Assembly: GCF_015291645.1 (NCBI RefSeq)
Contig: NZ_CP030055.1
Coordinates: 806,001 to 870,000 of the forward strand
Direction of reading: 5' to 3'
Source: Bradyrhizobium sp. CCBAU 53340
Lineage (GTDB): Bacteria; Pseudomonadota; Alphaproteobacteria; Rhizobiales; Xanthobacteraceae
DNA length: 64,000 bases
Positions 19,735 through 49,813 of the stretch are shown here, piece after piece. Both the position numbers and the translations under genes were made by a program. The notes beneath the pieces are model-generated. The model was not told the origin of the DNA and did no database searches. It saw only the letters and a list, made by a program, of their open reading frames with translations. Every line of letters starts with the position of its first letter. Within the stretch, counting starts at the first letter, position 1.

Positions 19735-21351
19735 GTGAAAGAGACGGGCGTGCGCAACGGTGCCTTCGGCGCCGACAAATTCGGCTTAAAGAATCTCAAA
19801 CAGGTTCACTGGAACCTCGGCGCGCCGCAGCTCTATCAATACTCGCTCGCTGCGGGCGAGGCGGTGCTGTCCGCCGACGGCGCACTCTGCGCCGACACGG
19901 GCGAGTTCACGGGCCGCAGTCCGAAAGACAAGTTCACGGTGCGTGACGCCACCACCGACAAGAAGATGTGGTGGGCCGGCAACCAGTCGATCACCTCCGA
20001 GCAGTTCGAAACTCTGTATCAGGACTTCCTCAAGCACGCCGAAGGCAAGAGCCTGTTCGCACAGGACCTCTATGGCGGCGCCGATCCGGCCTACCGGATC
20101 AAGACCCGCGTCTTCACCGAGCTGGCCTGGCACTCGCTGTTCATCCGCACACTGCTGATTCGCCCCGAGGCGATCGAGCTGTCGACCTTCGTGCCCGAGC
20201 TCACCATCATCGACATGCCGAGCTTCCGCGCCGATCCGAAGCGCCATGGCTGCAAGTCGGAGAACGTCGTCGCGATCGACTTCGCCCGCAAGATCGTGCT
20301 GATCGGCGGCTCCTACTACGCCGGCGAGATGAAGAAGTCGGTCTTCACCACGCTCAACTACTATCTGCCCGAGCGCGGCGTGATGCCGATGCATTGCTCG
20401 GCCAATGTCGGCGCCAAGGGTGACACCGCGATCTTCTTCGGACTGTCGGGCACCGGCAAGACCACGCTGTCGGCCGATCCGAATCGCACCCTGATCGGCG
20501 ACGATGAGCACGGCTGGGGTCCGAACGGCGTGTTCAATTTCGAAGGCGGCTGCTATGCCAAGTGCATCAAGCTGTCGCAGGAGGCCGAGCCGCAGATCTA
20601 TGCCGCCTCGACCCGCTTCGGCGCGGTGCTGGAGAATTGCGTGCTCGACGAAGACACCCGCATCGTCGACTTTGACGACGGCTCCAAGACCGAGAACACG
20701 CGCTCGGCCTATCCGCTCGATTTCATCCCGAACGCTTCGCGCAGCGGCCGCGCGCCGCAGCCGAAGAACGTGGTGATGCTCGCCGCCGACGCCTTCGGCG
20801 TGCTGCCGCCGATCGCCAAGCTGTCGCCGGCGCAGGCGATGTATCACTTCCTCTCCGGCTACACCGCCAAGGTCGCCGGCACCGAGCGCGGGCTCGGCAA
20901 TGAGCCGCAGCCAGAATTCTCGACCTGCTTCGGCTCGCCGTTTCTGCCGCTCGACCCGAGCGTCTACGGCAACATGCTGCGCGACCTCATTGCCCAGCAC
21001 AATGTCGACTGCTGGCTGGTCAACACCGGCTGGACCGGCGGCAAGTACGGCGTCGGCTCGCGCATGCCGATCAAGGTGACGCGCGCCTTGCTCACCGCTG
21101 CGCTCGACGGAAGCTTGCGCAATGTCGAATTCCGCACCGACAAATATTTCGGCTTCGCGGTCCCGACCGCGCTGCCGGGCGTGCCGAGCGAGATCCTCAA
21201 TCCGGTCAATACCTGGAAGGACAAGGACGAGTTCGACAAGACCGCACGTGGTCTGGTCGGCATGTTCCAGAAGAACTTCGCCAAGTTCGAGGCCCAGGTG
21301 GATGCAGAGGTGCGTGCGGCGGCGCCGGACGTGAAGCTCGCGGCGGAGTAA
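19735..21351 (+). CDS. pckA: Phosphoenolpyruvate carboxykinase (ATP)
   Basis: A 538-residue ATP-type PEPCK, the normal family length. It converts oxaloacetate and ATP to PEP and CO2, the first step of gluconeogenesis from C4-dicarboxylates, which matters in rhizobia growing on succinate or malate. The nucleotide-binding loop [16 protein letters not shown] and the substrate segment [13 protein letters not shown] are intact. The start is a GTG with AGGAGG 7 bp upstream. A Rho-independent terminator follows. In many Hyphomicrobiales pckA adjoins chvI divergently; here two genes lie between them. Confidence 0.98.
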
Positions 21352-21372
21352 TTTCCAAATCGCTTGGAATGC

Positions 21373-21400
21373 AAAAGGGCGGCCGCAAGGCTGCCCTTTT
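21373..21400 (+). terminator. Rho-independent terminator of pckA
   Basis: AAAAGGGCGGC (21373-21383), loop CGCAAG, and GCTGCCCTTTT (21390-21400), an 11-bp stem with one G-T pair, then TGTTTGTGG. It lies 21 bp after the pckA stop and has both a GC-rich core and a T-run. Confidence 0.85.
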
Positions 21401-21434
21401 GTTTGTGGCCATGTGCGCGAACCACATTCTCGGT

Positions 21435-21574
21435 GTCGTCCCGGCGAAGGCCGGGACCCATACCGCGTGATCTATCGAGGGCGCGTAGTGCACGTACCGG
21501 TGAAGAAGAGATCACTGCAAGTCTTCGCCAAACGACGCCCTATGGTTATGGGTCCCGGCCTGCGCCGGGACGGC
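21435..21574. repeat. Composite inverted repeat, GGGACCCATA family
   Basis: Two arms of about 27 bp face each other: the left contains CCCGGCGAAGGCCGGGACCC and the right TATGGGTCCCGG followed by CCTGCGCCGGGAC. Each arm is itself a hairpin. The interior of about 80 bp has no gene but includes TCTTCGCCAAAC (21522-21533), which recurs at the same distance from the right arm in the element at 49633-49786. Confidence 0.85.
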
Positions 21575-21590
21575 GTCGAGACAGTTGCAC

Positions 21591-22412
21591 CTACGCCTTG
21601 AAATACGCGATCTGCGTCGTCGTCGCGAGCAGTCTGCCGTTCGGCGACCACAGCTCGGCGTTCTGGTCGGCGTAGCTCTTGTGCATGATTTTCGAATCGG
21701 CCGTCGCCAGCACGCGGGTGATGTCTTCAGCCGCGAGTTCCTCACCGTCGGTGTGGAAATAGGTGGTCAGCGACACCGTGCCGAACGGCACCAGCTCGCG
21801 CCGGACGTGGAAGATGCGGCCAAAGAAGGCGTCCGACATCGACATCAGCGACAGCATGTCGAGCTTGCGCGGTTCGCGATCGCTGATCCAGAGTTTTGAA
21901 TAGGTGCTGGCGAGTGCGGCCTGCGGCCGCCCGATCCGCATCTCGCCCTCGACGAAGCGGAATTCATACTGGTTGGCCCAGGACGCCTTGATCTTCGGGA
22001 ATGGCAGCGTCTCTTCGAATGGCTTTGCATCCGGCGCTTTTGCCGCTCGATGCTCCCAGGATGGCCGCCGCTCGGCGAACACGGCGGTGGCAAGCGTTGC
22101 GACCTCGCCGCCGCCTTGGCTGAGTTCGACGCTCCAGTGCTGGCTGGATCGGTTGGCCTTCACCAGGCGGATGTCGAGATCGAACGGACCCTTGGCGATC
22201 GGCGCGCAGTAATTGACGGTCAGCGCCAGCGGATCGCCGGAGGCTTGCGGATGCTCGATCAGCGCGCGGAGGATGGTCGCGGCAGTCGCGCCCCCGAATG
22301 GACCGACGAAGGCCCAGTAATCGTCGCTGGTGTGTCCCTGCCAACGCGAGTCGCCGGCGGTGATACGGGTGGCGTCGTCGAAGGGATGCGCGAGCTTGGC
22401 GTGCATTGTCAT
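21591..22412 (-). CDS. TesB-like acyl-CoA thioesterase family protein
   Basis: A 273-residue double-hotdog protein. The N-terminal hotdog shows the family features SRWQGHTSDDYWAFVGPFGG and the strand LTVNYCAPIAKGPFDL, and the second hotdog ends with LATADSKIMHKSYADQNAELW. Such enzymes hydrolyse acyl-CoA thioesters; the acyl chain cannot be predicted. The start ATG is at 22412 (a second ATG lies two codons on). It lies 88 bp downstream of the glycogen phosphorylase gene on the same strand, so the two may share a transcript. Confidence 0.82.
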   Translation of the reverse strand: MTMHAKLAHPFDDATRITAGDSRWQGHTSDDYWAFVGPFGGATAATILRALIEHPQASGDPLALTVNYCAPIAKGPFDLDIRLVKANRSSQHWSVELSQGGGEVATLATAVFAERRPSWEHRAAKAPDAKPFEETLPFPKIKASWANQYEFRFVEGEMRIGRPQAALASTYSKLWISDREPRKLDMLSLMSMSDAFFGRIFHVRRELVPFGTVSLTTYFHTDGEELAAEDITRVLATADSKIMHKSYADQNAELWSPNGRLLATTTQIAYFKA

Positions 22413-22500
22413 GTCCGGCGTTCAATGACGGACGTCATATCACATCCGCCGCCGGCTTGTGCAATTACCTCTGGGGTAGGGATCTCATGCTGCGGAAAAA

Positions 22501-25035
22501 TCAGCTCGCCGTGTCGCGCAGCTTCTCGGCCTCCTGGAACGGAGGCGTGATCGGGTTCACCGGCACGTTCCAGATTTCCTCGGCATATTCGCGGATGGTG
22601 CGGTCGGACGAGAACCACGCCATGCGCGCGACGTTGAGGATGGAGGCTCTCGTCCAGGCCGGCGCGACCAGCCAGCGCGCATCGACCGCGCGCTGCGCCT
22701 CGTAATAGGAATCGAAATCGGCGCTGACCATATAATGATCGAGATAGCGCAGCGCATGCGCGATCGATTCGAAGCGGCCGGGATCGCCGGGCGAGAACTC
22801 GCCGACGCCGATCGCGTTGATGGCGCGCTGGAGCTTCGGTGAATTGCGGATCACGTCGGAGGCATCTAAGCCCTGCTTGCGCCGGATCATCACATCGCCG
22901 GCCTCCATGCCGAAGATCGCGATGTTCTCCGCGCCGACCTGGTCGCGGATCTCGATATTGGCGCCGTCGAGCGTACCGATGGTGATGGCGCCGTTGAGTG
23001 CCAGCTTCATGTTGCCGGTGCCGGAGGCCTCCATGCCGGCGGTCGAGATCTGCTCGGACAGGTCGGCGGCGGGAATGATCACCTCCGCCAGGCTGACATT
23101 GTAGTCCGGCAGGAACACGACCTTCAGCTTGCCGCCGATGGCGGGATCGTTGTTGACGATTTCGGCGACGTCGTTGATCAGCTTGATGATCAGTTTTGCG
23201 TATTTGTAGCTCGCCGCCGCCTTGCCCGCGAAGATCTTCACCCGCGGCACCCAGTTGCCATCCGGATCGTCCTTGATCGACTGATACAGCGCGACCGTCT
23301 CGATGATGTTGAGCAGCTGGCGCTTGTATTCGTGGATGCGCTTGATCTGCACGTCGAACAATGCGGTCGGATCGACCTTGATGCCGAGCCGCTCGCCGAT
23401 CAGGCGCGCAAGCGCGGTCTTGTTGTGCAGCTTGACGCTGCGGAACTTCTTCTGGAATTCGACGTCGCTGGCGCGCGCCTCGATCTGCGAGAGCAGGGTC
23501 GGGTCGTCGAGCACGGCATCGCCGCAGGTCTCGCGCAACAGCTCGGTCAGCTTCGGGTTCGCCAGCATCAGCCAGCGGCGGAAGGTGATGCCGTTGGTCT
23601 TGTTGGTGATGCGGCCGGGATAGAGATGGTTGAGGTCGTGGAACACGGTCTCGCGCATCAAATCCGAATGCATCGCCGAGACGCCGTTGATGCGGTGCGA
23701 GCCGACGAAGGCGAGCTGGCCCATGCGGACGCGGCGTCCGCTCTTCTCGTCGATCAGCGAGACCGAGGCGCGGAAGTCGATGTCGCCGGGCGCGCGTGCT
23801 TCAGCCAGGGCCAGATGCTGGACGTTGATACGGTAGATGATCTCGAGATGCCGCGGCAACAGTCGCTCGAACAGCTCGACCGGCCAGGTCTCCAGCGCTT
23901 CGGGCAGCAGCGTATGATTGGTGTAGGAGAGGGTGGCGACCGTGATCTTCCAGGCCTCGTCCCAGCGGAAGTTGTGGAGATCGACGAGGATGCGCATCAG
24001 CTCGGTGACGGCGAGGCTCGGATGGGTGTCGTTGAGCTGCACCGCGACCTTGGACGACAGGCTGCGGAGCTGGCCGTCCGACGACAGATGCCGTTTGACC
24101 AGGTCCTGTAGCGAGGCCGAGACGAAGAAATATTCCTGCCGCAGCCGCAGTTCGCGGCCCGCCGGGCTCTCATCGTTCGGGTAGAGGAATTTGCAGATCG
24201 CTTCCGCGCGCGCCTGCTCGGCGCTGGCGCTGACATAGTCGCCCATGTTGAAAGCGTCGAGCTTGAGCGGATCGGGCGAGCGCGCCGACCACAGCCGCAG
24301 CGCGTTGACGTGCTGGCCACGCCAGCCGACGATCGGCGTGTCATAGGCGATCGCCTGCACCGTTTCGCCCGGATGCCAGATCGCGCGGTCGCGGCCTCTG
24401 TCGTCAACATGCTCGACGCCGCCGCCGAAATTGACGTCGTAGATCACTTCCGGCCGCTGCAATTCCCAGGGGTTGCCGAAGCCGAGCCACTCGTCCGGAT
24501 ATTCCTGCTGCCAGCCCTGATTGATGATCTGGCGGAACAGGCCGTAATCGTAGCGGATGCCATAGCCGATCGCGGGGATCGACAGCGTGGCCATGCTCTC
24601 CATGAAGCAGGCGGCGAGCCGCCCGAGGCCGCCATTGCCGAGCGCGGCGTCCGGCTCGCATTTGCGCAGCTCGGGCAGCGAGACACCGAGATCGCCGAGC
24701 GCGACCTCGAAGATCTTGAGTAGGCCCATGTTGTTGAGCGCATCGGTGAAGAGGCGGCCGATCAGGAATTCGAGCGAAAGATAATAGACGCGCTTGCGGC
24801 CTGCGTCGTAGCTGCGCTTCTCGGCCGAAAGCCAGCGATGCACGATGCGGTCGCGCAGCGCCAGCGCCGCGGCCTGGTACCAGTCGTGCCTGGTCGCCAT
24901 GCCCGCGTCCTTGCCGATGGCAAGGCGCAGCTTCGCCAGGATCGCGCCCTTGATCTCCGCCAGCGCGAGCTCGTCGATCGGCTGACCGGGGGCGGGGAAA
25001 TTTGGCTGGAACGATTGATCTTGCAAGGCCGTCAC
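22501..25035 (-). CDS. glgP: Glycogen/starch phosphorylase
   Basis: About 840 residues, a full-length alpha-glucan phosphorylase that releases glucose-1-phosphate from glycogen. The pyridoxal-phosphate lysine segment EASGTGNMKLALNGAI and the glucan-binding region EFLIGRLFTDALNNMG are intact. The start is uncertain: the frame is open to a GTG at 25113, a GTG lies at 25035, and a TTG at 25026 is the only one with AGGA at a usable distance. No other glg genes are present in the window. It is divergent from the small secreted gene at 25235. Confidence 0.93.
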   Translation of the reverse strand: MTALQDQSFQPNFPAPGQPIDELALAEIKGAILAKLRLAIGKDAGMATRHDWYQAAALALRDRIVHRWLSAEKRSYDAGRKRVYYLSLEFLIGRLFTDALNNMGLLKIFEVALGDLGVSLPELRKCEPDAALGNGGLGRLAACFMESMATLSIPAIGYGIRYDYGLFRQIINQGWQQEYPDEWLGFGNPWELQRPEVIYDVNFGGGVEHVDDRGRDRAIWHPGETVQAIAYDTPIVGWRGQHVNALRLWSARSPDPLKLDAFNMGDYVSASAEQARAEAICKFLYPNDESPAGRELRLRQEYFFVSASLQDLVKRHLSSDGQLRSLSSKVAVQLNDTHPSLAVTELMRILVDLHNFRWDEAWKITVATLSYTNHTLLPEALETWPVELFERLLPRHLEIIYRINVQHLALAEARAPGDIDFRASVSLIDEKSGRRVRMGQLAFVGSHRINGVSAMHSDLMRETVFHDLNHLYPGRITNKTNGITFRRWLMLANPKLTELLRETCGDAVLDDPTLLSQIEARASDVEFQKKFRSVKLHNKTALARLIGERLGIKVDPTALFDVQIKRIHEYKRQLLNIIETVALYQSIKDDPDGNWVPRVKIFAGKAAASYKYAKLIIKLINDVAEIVNNDPAIGGKLKVVFLPDYNVSLAEVIIPAADLSEQISTAGMEASGTGNMKLALNGAITIGTLDGANIEIRDQVGAENIAIFGMEAGDVMIRRKQGLDASDVIRNSPKLQRAINAIGVGEFSPGDPGRFESIAHALRYLDHYMVSADFDSYYEAQRAVDARWLVAPAWTRASILNVARMAWFSSDRTIREYAEEIWNVPVNPITPPFQEAEKLRDTAS

Positions 25036-25234
25036 TTCCTGGTCGACAGAAACACCACTAAACCCTACGCGTCTTGCCCCTGCACCGGAACCATCGCTGG
25101 CGCGGCCGTGCACTGCGCTGGCGTAAAATTATGCAAGGAATGGGCCGGTTTGGGAACCCGGAGCAGCACGGAGGAACGCTGATTTGGTGCTAGAGTGGGC
25201 GCAGATTCAGCCATCAGTGTGGAGGAGACGCCCC

Positions 25235-25474
25235 ATGAAACCTCTGATGAGACTGCTGATCGAAATCGCGACCGCAGCGCTTCTCGTCATCTGCATCGCC
25301 ACCTCGAGCGCCGCCTTCGCCGCCGGCAAGCGCAGCGCCGATGGCCTCAGCTGCGCCGTCTCGCTCCCGCAAAACGCAACGCCAGCGCAACGCTGCGCCG
25401 CCATCAAGCGCCAATGCGGCGGCAAGTTCTACGCGAGTGCGTGCGGGGACAAGCTGATGTCGGCGGTGAATTGA
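25235..25474 (+). CDS. Small secreted cysteine-containing protein, 79 aa
   Basis: A clear signal peptide (MKPLMRLLIEIATAALLVIC, then an alanine-rich stretch ending FAA) precedes a mature part of about 48 residues. It has four cysteines spaced C-x(14)-C-x(7)-C-x(8)-C, suggesting two disulfides in the periplasm. No family was recognised. GGAGGAGAC lies 5-13 bp before the ATG, a strong translation signal. The GIY-YIG repeat element begins 32 bp after the stop. Confidence 0.75.
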   Translation: MKPLMRLLIEIATAALLVICIATSSAAFAAGKRSADGLSCAVSLPQNATPAQRCAAIKRQCGGKFYASACGDKLMSAVN

Positions 25475-25506
25475 GGCGTTGGACGAAGCGAAACTGTCGC
25501 CCCATT

Positions 25507-25868
25507 GTCGTCCTGGCGAAAGCCAGGACCCATTACCCCGACTGTCAGATGAGGCCCGACTGATCATTCCAGTCAGGATTTTCTCGCTCGATCAACTTGA
25601 TCTTCCAATCGCGTTTCCAGAATTTCAGCTGCTTCTCGCGCGCAATGGCTTCCTGCGGTGTCGCAAATGCCAAGGCGGAAGACCTTGTACTTCTGCACGA
25701 ACTTGGAACCGCGACCCGAACGGTGCAGGTCAATCCGCGCGCGGATGTTATTGTGATGGCGGCTCGCCAGAATATAGACGTAGTAGCTGCCTGCGCTCAT
25801 GGGTGCGGCTCAAGCTCGCAAGAGCAACGCTGACCGGGGTAATGGGTCCTGGCTTTCGCCAGGACGAC
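25507..25868. mobile_element. 362-bp inverted-repeat element carrying a GIY-YIG remnant
   Basis: The left end (25507-25539) and right end (25836-25868) are exact 33-bp reverse complements. Both contain CCTGGCGAAAGCCAGG, itself a hairpin, followed by ACCCATTACCCC. The arms resemble the GGGACCCATA repeats at 21435 and 49633, but here they enclose a degraded GIY-YIG gene. Target-site duplication was not evident. The element lies between two plus-strand genes and interrupts neither. Confidence 0.7.
25545..25800 (-). pseudogene. Degraded GIY-YIG endonuclease gene
   Basis: From ATG at 25800 the frame reads SYYVYILASRHHNNI, the start of a GIY-YIG domain, then jumps to RARIDLHRSGRGSKFVQKY, missing the stretch that normally holds Y-I-G and V-T-N-D-L. 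After KVFRL (near 25672) the frame is lost. It resumes in another frame as FATPQEAIAREKQLKFWKRD and ends NPDW at the stop at 25545. Thus one in-frame deletion removed the catalytic YIG, and a second deletion shifted the frame. Intact relatives are about 95-100 residues; this copy cannot be active. Confidence 0.8.
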
Positions 25869-25997
25869 GGCTTTTAGCAACCAGCTGTTCAGCATCAGAA
25901 CAAATTAAGAACACTTTAGCAAGTCTTTGATATATCATTGTGATTCGGCGCATTGCCGACACAATATCTAGGGTCTGTCAGACGTTGCGAGGACTAC

Positions 25998-26429
25998 ATG
26001 TCCACCATTGCCTTCGATCAATTTGCTCTCACCCGGATCGCCGATTTCGCACGGTCGCTGTCGCGGTTGCATCAGGCGGCGCGGCGCTATGCCGTCGACG
26101 ATGACCAGTTTGATCGCGAGTTCAACGCGGTGTGCCAGTCGATCTGGGGCTACACGATCGACGACATTAGCGACGATCTGTTCACGGCCGCAGATCATCA
26201 CTTCCTGGACACGCTGGACGAAGCGCATGCGCGGATCTTTGCGGCCGAGCAGGGTTATGACCTTGTCAGCGAGACTGGCATGCTGACCGACTGGTGGGGC
26301 TTCTGCTGGATGATTCTCGCCGAGAAGCGCGGCCTGCTCACGGCGGAAAACCGCGCTGCCGCGCGCGCGGCGATCGAGGAGAAATATCTGGCCGCGCCGA
26401 ATGTGATCGGGGTGATTATCGGGCGGTAG
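25998..26429 (+). CDS. Conserved hypothetical protein, 143 aa
   Basis: No named family was recognised. The protein is acidic and mostly helical, with no signal peptide or membrane helix, so it is probably cytoplasmic. It is rich in aspartate and tryptophan, with notable segments DDDQFDREFNAVCQSIWGY and TDWWGFCWMIL. The ATG at 25998 has GCGAGGA a few bases upstream; the frame extends 15 codons further without support. A palindromic repeat begins 12 bp after the stop. Confidence 0.65.
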   Translation: MSTIAFDQFALTRIADFARSLSRLHQAARRYAVDDDQFDREFNAVCQSIWGYTIDDISDDLFTAADHHFLDTLDEAHARIFAAEQGYDLVSETGMLTDWWGFCWMILAEKRGLLTAENRAAARAAIEEKYLAAPNVIGVIIGR

Positions 26430-26440
26430 CGCCGCGACCT

Positions 26441-26530
26441 CCGTCATTGCGAGGAGCTCTTGCGACGAAGCAATCGAGAGTGCCGCCGCAGAAGCATTTC
26501 TGGATTGCTTCGCTACGCTCGCAATGACGG
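26441..26530. repeat. Palindromic repeat, CGTCATTGCGAG family
   Basis: CCGTCATTGCGAGGAGC at the left and the inverted GCTACGCTCGCAATGACGG at the right, with GAAGCAATC/GATTGCTTC as a second inverted pair inside. It fills the gap between the 143-aa gene and the DUF2865 gene and may act as a bidirectional 3' structure between these convergent genes. Confidence 0.8.
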
Positions 26531-26541
26531 CGTGGAGGGCC

Positions 26542-27354
26542 TTAATCCAGCCCCGCCCGCTTCGCCGATTTCGCCGGCGACTTCGGTGCCGTTACGTCAG
26601 GCAGTGTCTCGCGCACGATCTCGGCGGACGGCGCATCGGCCGCCACCGTGTCCGCGCGAACTGGGGCCACCCTCATCTCGCCGAGCCGGGCGCGGACCTG
26701 CGCGGTGAGGCCGGGATAGGAAGCGACGGGCGTGAACTCCGCGGTCTGCTCCTGGCCAAGCCGGACGCCGGTATAGGCGACCAGGCCGTCAGTGGTGGCA
26801 ATGACGTCGCCGGCCTTCAGCGACGAGTCGAGGGCCAAATCGACCGGAGCGAGGCCGGCCGGCTCGCGGCCGTTGCAGGTGCAATCCGCGCGCAGCGCCT
26901 TGCGATAGGCGAACGCGTTCTCGCTGTCGGCGTAGCGCTCACCGGTCTGCGAATAGGCGCCGTCGATCGAGGAGCCGAAATAGACCTTGGTCGTGCTGGC
27001 AGGACAGAAGGCCTGACACATCTGCGCCGGCGAGGCGAGGCCGCGCATCAGCGGAAAATATTTGCCGTCACAGCTGCGCACGCAGAACGCCGGGCCAGAG
27101 CCGCCGGCCGCCGCCGAGCGCGTCGGCGGCACATATTGCGGCTGGACGGCCGGGTTCTGCTGACCGGTGAAGGGATCGGCATAGGAGTTCGCCTGCTGCG
27201 GCACGTCGCGTTGAGGCCGCTGCTGCATTCCGCCGAAGAAGAAGTCGAACAGGCCTTCGGCTGAAACCGGGGCCGGGGCGGCAAGCAGCGGGCTTGCGAG
27301 AATGGCGGCCAAAAGCATCGCGCGACGCCGCGCATGGGATACAATCGTACGCAA
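26542..27354 (-). CDS. DUF2865 secreted protein
   Basis: A 270-residue exported protein. A signal peptide (about residues 1-32, basic start then LLAAILASPLLAAPAPVSA) is followed by a Q/P-rich stretch and the cysteine-rich DUF2865 core: FCVRSCDGKYFPL, CQAFCPAS, YFGSSIDGAY and CTCNG. The core's six cysteines suggest disulfides in the periplasm. DUF2865 is common in Bradyrhizobium relatives and has no known function. It lies downstream of pyrE on the same strand with a 109-bp gap, and it converges with the 143-aa gene. Confidence 0.88.
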   Translation of the reverse strand: MRTIVSHARRRAMLLAAILASPLLAAPAPVSAEGLFDFFFGGMQQRPQRDVPQQANSYADPFTGQQNPAVQPQYVPPTRSAAAGGSGPAFCVRSCDGKYFPLMRGLASPAQMCQAFCPASTTKVYFGSSIDGAYSQTGERYADSENAFAYRKALRADCTCNGREPAGLAPVDLALDSSLKAGDVIATTDGLVAYTGVRLGQEQTAEFTPVASYPGLTAQVRARLGEMRVAPVRADTVAADAPSAEIVRETLPDVTAPKSPAKSAKRAGLD

Positions 27355-27463
27355 CGCTTACTCCACCCGACGCTACTGAAGCGGCCGCGACCATCAGGTC
27401 TCAGCACATGATTCACCATAGAGCGGGATGGTAAATGAGCGGTTGAGGGGGCGCCTCGGGCCG

Positions 27464-28027
27464 CTATGCCTTCAGGAATTCCGAGGCCTTGTACAGCGAG
27501 CGGAACGGCAGGCCGGCCGCGCCGAACGTGTCGGTGGCGCCTTCCTCGCGATCGACCATGGTCAGCACCAGCACCACTTCAGCGCCGGTTTCGCGCACGG
27601 ATTCCACCGCCTTCATCGCCGAGCCGCCGGTCGTGGTGACGTCCTCGACGATCACGACGCGCTTGCCGGCGAGCGTTTCGCCTTTCGGCAGGCCTTCGAT
27701 CGCGAGCCTGGCGCCGTGCTCCTTCGGCTTCTTGCGCACGAAGAAGGCCGCGATCGGATGGCCCTTGATCCAGGAGATCTGCGCCAGCGCGCCGGCGAGC
27801 GGTACCGCGCCCATTTCGAGGCCGCCGATGAAATCGAGATTATCGTCCTTCAGCGCCTCGTAGGTCAGCTCGGCGAGCAGGGTCGCGCCTTCGGGGTCGA
27901 GCATGGTCGGCTTGAGGTTGAAATAGAAATCGCTCTTGCGGCCCGACGCGAGCGTCACCTCACCGCGGCCGAAGGAGCGGCGACGGATGATTTCGAACAG
28001 GCGGGCTCGGGAGGCAGATTTCGACAC
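27464..28027 (-). CDS. pyrE: Orotate phosphoribosyltransferase
   Basis: A 187-residue OPRTase. It joins orotate to PRPP, giving OMP in pyrimidine synthesis. The PRPP-binding motif [14 protein letters not shown] is intact, and [14 protein letters not shown] matches the family N-terminus. The start is a GTG at 28027 (reading [11 protein letters not shown]), with AGGGA 5 bp upstream; the frame is open far upstream but that part is not family-like. The divergent glutathione transferase gene begins about 200 bp away. Confidence 0.95.
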
Positions 28028-49632: not shown

Positions 49633-49786
49633 GTCGTCCCGGACAAGCGCGCCCCAAGCGCGCGCCGATCCGGGACCCATAGCCACAGGGAGTAGTTATG
49701 GCGTGAGCTGCCAACTCCGAATCTTCGCCAAACTCAATCCTGTGGCTATGGGTCCCGGGTCTGCGCTGTCGCTTGCCCGGGACGAC
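49633..49786. repeat. Composite inverted repeat, GGGACCCATA family
   Basis: CCGGGACCCATAGCCACAGG (49670-49689) is exactly inverted at 49739-49758, and outer ends GTCGTCCCGG and CCGGGACGAC also face each other. The interior contains TCTTCGCCAAAC (49722-49733), shared with the element at 21435-21574 at the same spacing from the right arm. No gene is inside. Confidence 0.87.
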
Positions 49787-49813
49787 AGCTGAGTTTGTCG
49801 CACCGGCCGGTGA

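Follow-up and report, generated by a model that had tools for sequence, protein, structure and literature searches.

A broken GIY-YIG nuclease gene between inverted CGTC-tagged repeats in Bradyrhizobium, and a candidate cognate enzyme for extragenic palindromes

Introduction

Why should a broken nuclease gene lie between two perfectly inverted copies of a short repeat that occurs elsewhere on the same chromosome without any gene? The question is raised by a 362-bp element of Bradyrhizobium sp. CCBAU 53340, which we analysed within a stretch of 64,000 nucleotides (hereafter the window; positions 806,001 to 870,000 of contig NZ_CP030055.1). A first-pass annotation, made from the sequence alone, had suggested a system in which small GIY-YIG nucleases mobilise or maintain palindromic repeats, comparable in logic to RAYT transposases and their REP sequences. 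The reading at which we arrive, and to which we give a probability of roughly 0.7, is that a GIY-YIG nuclease cognate to these REPs promotes the spread or upkeep of its own repeats, by analogy with the RAYT/REP pairing and with an unrelated enzyme.

The repeats concerned resemble the CGTC-tagged REPs. As characterised by Di Nocera and co-workers in 2013 (PMC3733652), these carry an unpaired CGTC, TGTC or CCTC tag at one end, a stem of 8-9 bp, a loop of 4-5 and a CCA tail; they form inverted dimers, sit in intergenic gaps, are found in Bradyrhizobium, and include dRS3 of Neisseria as well as RPE-4 and RPE-6 of Rickettsia. A-T pairing at the first two positions of the stem is given there as almost invariable and not as defining. 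According to the same paper, the superfamily is apparently without a dedicated transposase, and the authors suggest that its enzyme has been lost or that other transposases act on it; the word GIY is absent from the text of that paper. Among the matches listed for the open full-text literature, we found no report of a link between GIY-YIG enzymes and REPs; in one paper the terms GIY-YIG, RAYT and extragenic palindrome co-occur on separate annotation lines, unlinked.

The element in the window

The two arms of the element are reverse complements at 34 of 34 positions and lie 294 nt apart (Table 1). They had been described as perfect 33-bp inverted ends; the exact complementarity stands, and the length is corrected to 34 nt. 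Each arm folds into a hairpin, as had also been claimed, with an 8-bp stem, a 4-base loop and a folding energy of -9.4 kcal/mol (z -5.8 and -4.3), and a 29-base arm pattern, with at most 3 mismatches allowed, finds the two arms as its sole matches in the window and nothing in 100 shuffles. The TGTC tag ahead of the 8-bp stem, the GAAA loop and the CCA tail fit the CGTC-tagged REPs, whereas the A-T stem trait is lacking in the window type, which has G-C and then T-A; the repeats of other lineages read GTCATT.... Rfam gave no match within 20000-28000.

Between the arms, the nuclease gene can no longer be read through: its first frame starts MSAGSYYVYILASRHH and then continues without the GTLYIGVT segment, while its C-terminal part lies in a different frame (...AREKQLKFWKRDWKIKLIERENPDWND). 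Positions 25548-25673 match residues 51-92 of an intact relative, P0001, at 64% (E 1.1e-12), and the window copy, at 13.7 bits, is below the cut-off of PF01541. Relative to L070, the nearest among the intact B1 elements compared (88% DNA identity), it has lost 24 bp in frame, and with them the GT-YIGVT segment, and has a frameshifting net deletion of 11 bp; the loss of both YIG segment and frame had thus been read correctly. The element is probably a REP-GIY-REP unit that has decayed, that is, a 93-aa single-domain nuclease between facing CGTC-REPs with their tags outward.

Perfect arms around a dead gene need no recent insertion, since B1 arms stay near the consensus of their type in every species seen, and we have dropped the idea that they mark one. 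Mean agreement with the consensus over all 15 B1 loci is 97% for the left arm and 97% for the right, and in B2 it is 89% and 88%; the mean between-species identity of the gene DNA is 83% in B1 and 77% in B2. In lineage A the arms agree at 90% on the left and 69% on the right (control stretch, 46-48%), the low right value arising because a doublet follows the gene and the inward arm is often outside the 150 bp examined.

Table 1. Coordinates of the element, its neighbours and related repeats in the window
Feature	Position	Strand	Remarks
Gene-less inverted doublet of the arm's CGTC-REP family, CCCGGCGAAGGCCGGG body	21435..21575 (end approximate)		21435-21580 folds, z -8.0
Left neighbour ORF	25184..25474	+	Beside the right neighbour in 52/86 genomes: 25/26 with the nuclease gene intact, 9/11 broken, 18/49 without it
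Left arm	25507..25540	+	B1-type CGTC REP with its tagged end facing outward and its CCAT tail facing the gene; inverted repeat, hairpin and pattern
GIY-YIG nuclease remnant, lineage B1	about 25545..25800	-	ORFs 25573-25800 and 25545-25733; match to P0001; alignment to intact relative
Right arm	25835..25868	-	Same B1 REP, inverted; inverted repeat and hairpin
Right neighbour gene	25981..26429	+	Used for orthology and the flank tree; at least 300 bp in 86 genomes
Doublet of another CGTC-tagged repeat, CGTCATTGCGAGGAGC...GAAGCAATC	26442..26529 (ends approximate)		Between convergent genes; 26440-26532 folds, z -5.4
Gene-less inverted doublet of the arm's CGTC-REP family, longer hairpin body	49633..49786 (end approximate)		49645-49790 folds, z -8.2

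Dispersed repeats of the same family

Four matches to GGGACCCATA occur in the window (at 21453, 21547, 49672 and 49747), with 0.05 expected, and they fall in two inverted doublets of the arm's family, which upholds the proposed kinship of the element's ends with the repeats at 21435 and 49633. In the genome as a whole, the 20-base hairpin has 34 matches with at most 2 mismatches (reversed control, 0), among which there are 9 close inverted pairs; eight span 114-143 bp and the pair in the window spans 356 bp. By these matches and pairs, the arms and the dispersed repeats of this genome are the same repeats.

The further doublet downstream of the element belongs to another CGTC-tagged repeat. 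Inspected by eye in 29 relatives, its gap (26430-26542) holds this doublet in one orientation or the other, doublets from other families, or a stub left by collapse, and is by this inspection a hot spot of REP turnover.

Framing of intact relatives

As a measure of framing, we took the longest stretch in the 200 bp ahead of a gene that recurs exactly, in inverted orientation, in the 200 bp behind it, and set the threshold at 14 bases. The genus set comprised 110 loci among the matches listed (down to about E 6e-27); the phylum set comprised 107 loci, 27 delivered directly and 80 chosen from the match list, of which 106 were analysed (L241 was without match) and two, L144 and L167, come from the genus itself; and the named set consisted of the best 80 of at least 586 relatives.

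Of the genus loci, 91 of 110 (among the matches listed) are framed, against none of 330 intervals of equal size and none of 44 other ORFs (100 aa or longer) in the same loci, so that intact relatives are framed more often than random genes. The layout first noticed, a nuclease gene framed by repeats that are found gene-less elsewhere, is thus seen in the window and across the genus, with intact relatives associated with such repeats and arms that agree with the dispersed copies. Beyond the genus, framing was found at 60 of 106 loci in the phylum draw (1/318 control intervals; 0/56 other ORFs), and it declines away from the subfamily, since the framed share drops with bit score: 50/76 at 85 bits or more, 9/22 at 60-85 and 1/8 at 45-60. 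The named loci, which span proteobacteria, Nitrospira, Planctomycetes, Anaerolineae and Patescibacteria, among others, are framed in 45 of 80 cases (the best 80 of at least 586), or 43 of the 74 with full flanks, against 1/240 intervals and 5/267 other ORFs. Hairpins with the CGTC-like end outward stand on both sides of 80/110, 42/106 and 52/80 loci in the three sets, compared with 1/330, 1/318 and 1/240 intervals. Two observations count against a nuclease dedicated to these repeats: other ORFs also have CGTC-like hairpins on both sides (3/56 and 5/267 in the phylum and named sets; 0/44 in the genus set), and about four in ten of the phylum and named loci fall below the 14-base threshold.

In the genome that contains the window, the intact relative at C1:648141 is framed, and two further GIY genes, L001 and one in L003, are unframed (longest inverted match 7 and 9). 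The latter two bear on passive co-location, by which gene and REPs would both accumulate in permissive intergenic gaps. REPs do occupy gaps, those between convergent genes included, as this would have it; the random-interval and gene-boundary controls disfavour it, however, as do these two unframed genes and the matched repeat types on the two sides of the nuclease (see below), and we regard it as very improbable.

Individual settings of the gene were also viewed by eye. In Azospirillum lipoferum 4B (L402), the gene, flanked by one doublet on either side, separates sufB from sufC in the suf operon; in Neisseria gonorrhoeae, dRS3-like repeats lie beside it; and in Sinorhizobium meliloti, a CCTC-type variant lies by it.

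The enzyme

The intact relative P0001 matches the Pfam family GIY-YIG (PF01541) at 66.2 bits, with a cut-off of 22.6, and T5orf172 as well, with GIY_YIG_2 sub-threshold; Pfam detected in it neither Y1_Tnp nor any domain beyond the GIY-YIG fold. In an alignment of 29 sequences, five residues (Y16, G18, H30, E63 and N82) do not vary and two more (Y5 and R26) hardly do; we take all seven to be GIY-YIG active-site residues. The structure model is confident and of GIY type (pLDDT 94.8, pTM 0.86). Within the lineages, dN/dS has medians of 0.04-0.10, at dS values close to saturation (0.9-1.5), and the protein is therefore under selection. The small nuclease gene is common, as 2990 proteins at E <= 1e-6 were found among 2994 candidates in one word-based search. 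Its nearest solved structures, by sequence, are the UPF0213 single-domain GIY-YIG proteins 1zg2 and 1ywl of the PDB (E 2e-8 and 7e-6), to which the similarity is weak. Libraries of defence and phage families yielded nothing beyond weak partial matches, one to PDC-S14, a candidate defence family (E 8e-4), and one of a PHROGs homing family to residues 1-33 (E 9e-5).

At three loci (L183, L198 and L246), the nuclease frame enters the downstream REP, which there codes for a C-terminal ...PLSRE. A single Y1_Tnp gene was found in the genome that contains the window (L361, C1:2230038-2230304); it is located between ggtgacagtgcactaaat-type inverted repeats unrelated to the arms, a TIRYT-like arrangement.

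Nuclease lineage and repeat type

Seven repeat types were defined from the genus flanks seen, and C2 was pooled with C ahead of the tree analysis. At 84 of the 88 loci that could be typed in both flanks, the two types agree, the other four loci being C/C2 mixes; for 22 of the 110 genus loci, a type was assigned to one flank alone. Mapped onto a tree of 106 nuclease proteins, the types require 6 changes, the least possible for seven labels, against a mean of 64 when shuffled. This congruence is largely joint inheritance, because the 110 genus loci (among the matches listed) occupy just 14 genomic sites. The type is kept across sites, lineage A being found at five, E at three, and C and F at two each. 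Nuclease lineage and REP type go together.

Repeat numbers across genomes

The presence of GIY-A, GIY-B and GIY-C was assigned from identity bands among the matches listed, with partial GIY-A and one partial GIY-C taken as present and with G041 and G063 excluded from GIY-B; REP counts include the unit's own arms, and B-REP numbers are the difference of two genome-wide repeat counts. Across 117 genomes, so counted, the median number of A-REPs is 36 with GIY-A and 4 without it, that of B-REPs 126 with GIY-B and 7.5 without it, and that of C-REPs 16 with GIY-C and 7 without it. The cognate (diagonal) AUC is 0.81, 0.94 and 0.74 for A, B and C, and off-diagonal values are 0.40-0.68. The highest of the latter, C-REPs with GIY-B (AUC 0.68, p 0.003, the copy-number p-values ignoring phylogeny), counts against the cognate reading, as do the 8 of 38 GIY-A genomes with at most 5 A-REPs; the genome that contains the window has 3.

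In a comparison of phylogenetically independent pairs, which are few, GIY-B and B-REPs above 20 gave 8 supported pairs, of which 4.7 run the same way and 0.0 the opposite way (median p 0.06), and A-REPs above 10 do not follow GIY-B (0.9 same, 2.0 opposite). The paired test for GIY-A (12 pairs, among the results listed) is weak and unspecific, with 2.6 same and 0.2 opposite for A-REPs above 30 and 2.7 and 0.6 for B-REPs above 20. How many cognate REPs a genome has away from the unit is associated with its having the cognate nuclease lineage, and the RAYT-like logic put forward at the outset is strengthened by these numbers together with the lineage-specific repeat types.

Both associations bear on the alternative that another transposase, RAYT or otherwise, moves the CGTC-REPs, and that the GIY-YIG gene is cargo caught between two of them. 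The scarcity of sites with the gene (14 for 110 loci) beside numerous doublets would suit such cargo, and Di Nocera 2013 allows for other transposases (PMC3733652). Yet cargo predicts neither REP types matched to the nuclease lineage nor REP numbers specific to the cognate one, and the association of gene and REP recurs in many phyla. A RAYT as the mover in the genome that contains the window was considered and rejected, the one Y1_Tnp gene found there lying between unrelated repeats. We judge the cargo explanation improbable.

History of the site

All 117 genus genomes match the stretch 25870-26600 somewhere, a few only briefly. The comparison of orthologous sites that the first-pass annotation had asked for was made in 86 genomes, and intact, broken and element-free sites were found: 26 carry an intact nuclease gene, 11 a broken one (the genome of the window among them) and 49 none, numbers that are not frequencies, as the set includes loci picked for carrying the gene, and the median B-REP counts are 129, 75 and 8, respectively. 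In 31 of the 49 gene-less genomes, the left neighbour is missing there as well, so their gap is not strictly an equivalent position; genomes that have both neighbours give medians of 132 (25 intact), 79 (9 broken) and 9 (18 without the gene). The highest B-REP counts without the gene (140 in G084, 57 in G005, 55 in G012 and 39 in G020) count against a cognate nuclease.

On a tree of the two flanking genes, presence of the gene changes 16 times, at least 12 of them on supported branches (28 when shuffled). Carriers switch between versions B1 and B2 10 times, with at least 7 of these switches on supported branches (12.4 when shuffled). Gene similarity and flank similarity are uncorrelated over B1/B2 pairs (rho -0.17) and reach rho 0.47 within B1 and 0.46 within B2; because these last correlations are moderate, the history is in part vertical. 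The gene with its arms has come, gone and been exchanged as one unit at a fixed place, although ordinary recombination between flanks could be an alternative cause of the exchange. Between the same neighbours, the element is inverted in 1/26 cases at the main A site, 2/19 at the C site and 1/6 at an E site (L056, L104, L134 and L138), which may reflect recombination between arms or re-insertion of the unit. As regards a target-site duplication, the sample held no clean filled/empty pair of close relatives.

Such a history matters for a third alternative, in which the REPs serve the gene or shield the chromosome from it, as terminators or self-marks, and the two form a regulatory, defence or addiction-like pair that is not mobile. 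The spacing measured in lineages A and B (a REP 38-56 bp before the gene in 43/47 and 10-33 bp after it in 23/27), the nuclease frames that enter a REP, the strong purifying selection and the weak partial match to PDC-S14 all speak for a pair of this sort. Taken alone, it leaves unexplained why cognate REPs are numerous at a distance from the gene, the persistence of REPs where the gene is broken and the exchange of the unit at one site, and we consider it unlikely.

Discussion

The reading that we prefer, a nuclease cognate to its REPs, can be put as a sequence of steps. The nuclease would recognise its own REP as a hairpin or cruciform and cut there, and host repair would then copy or homogenise the unit and, acting in trans, the short doublets that lack a gene. 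The repair-copy step is the more tentative part, being about half as probable as the reading as a whole. GIY-YIG enzymes hydrolyse DNA. Because of this hydrolytic chemistry, and because a single domain was found, strand transfer by the enzyme is unlikely, and the repeats would spread by break repair or gene conversion, in a homing-like manner, rather than by HUH transesterification as in RAYT.

That repeat types belonging to single nuclease lineages occur in many bacteria suggests, from sequence comparison, that a large repeat family has in this nuclease the missing partner by which it is spread or maintained. We lean somewhat towards the wider proposal that the CGTC-REPs of many phyla, dRS3 included, are dispersed substrates of dedicated nucleases of about 93 aa, each lineage of which would recognise its own palindrome and spread or homogenise it by cutting and repair-coupled copying.

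RAYT, or TnpA-REP, with its GTAG REPs (REPtron, REPIN), is a close parallel, by analogy and not by membership. There too an enzyme gene lies between REPs, the enzyme lineage is matched to REP type, gene copies are few and gene-less inverted doublets many, and the repeat is a hairpin with a tagged foot. The enzyme differs, being an HUH/Y1 transposase in RAYT, while here there is a GIY-YIG domain and Pfam finds no Y1_Tnp; so does the tag, which is GTAG there and CGTC/TGTC-like here. With the CGTC-tagged REPs, as described in PMC3733652, the present repeats share the tag, the 8-bp stem, the 4-base loop, the CCA tail and the inverted dimers.

Two other kinds of element invite comparison. Free-standing GIY-YIG homing endonucleases are exemplified by the phage seg genes and I-TevI. 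They have in common with the present unit the GIY-YIG domain and, as an evolutionary pattern alone here, gain, decay and loss at one site; unlike them, the unit has REP arms and dispersed gene-less copies, and no separate DNA-binding domain was seen in it. Transposons with terminal inverted repeats (TIR), which are accompanied by MITEs, share such repeats with the window element, but their short copies are internal deletions; the doublets were tried as internally deleted gene-bearing units here, and this is mostly unsupported, tail similarity being seen in 8/47 upstream and 3/27 downstream.

If the reading is true, the open question of the enzyme of the CGTC-REPs becomes accessible to a direct biochemical test, and a small nuclease gene, common and as yet unassigned in function, gains a role. 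The REP life-style would then have arisen with two unrelated enzymes, and a hydrolysis-based counterpart of RAYT/REP would be a new kind of minimal mobile element.
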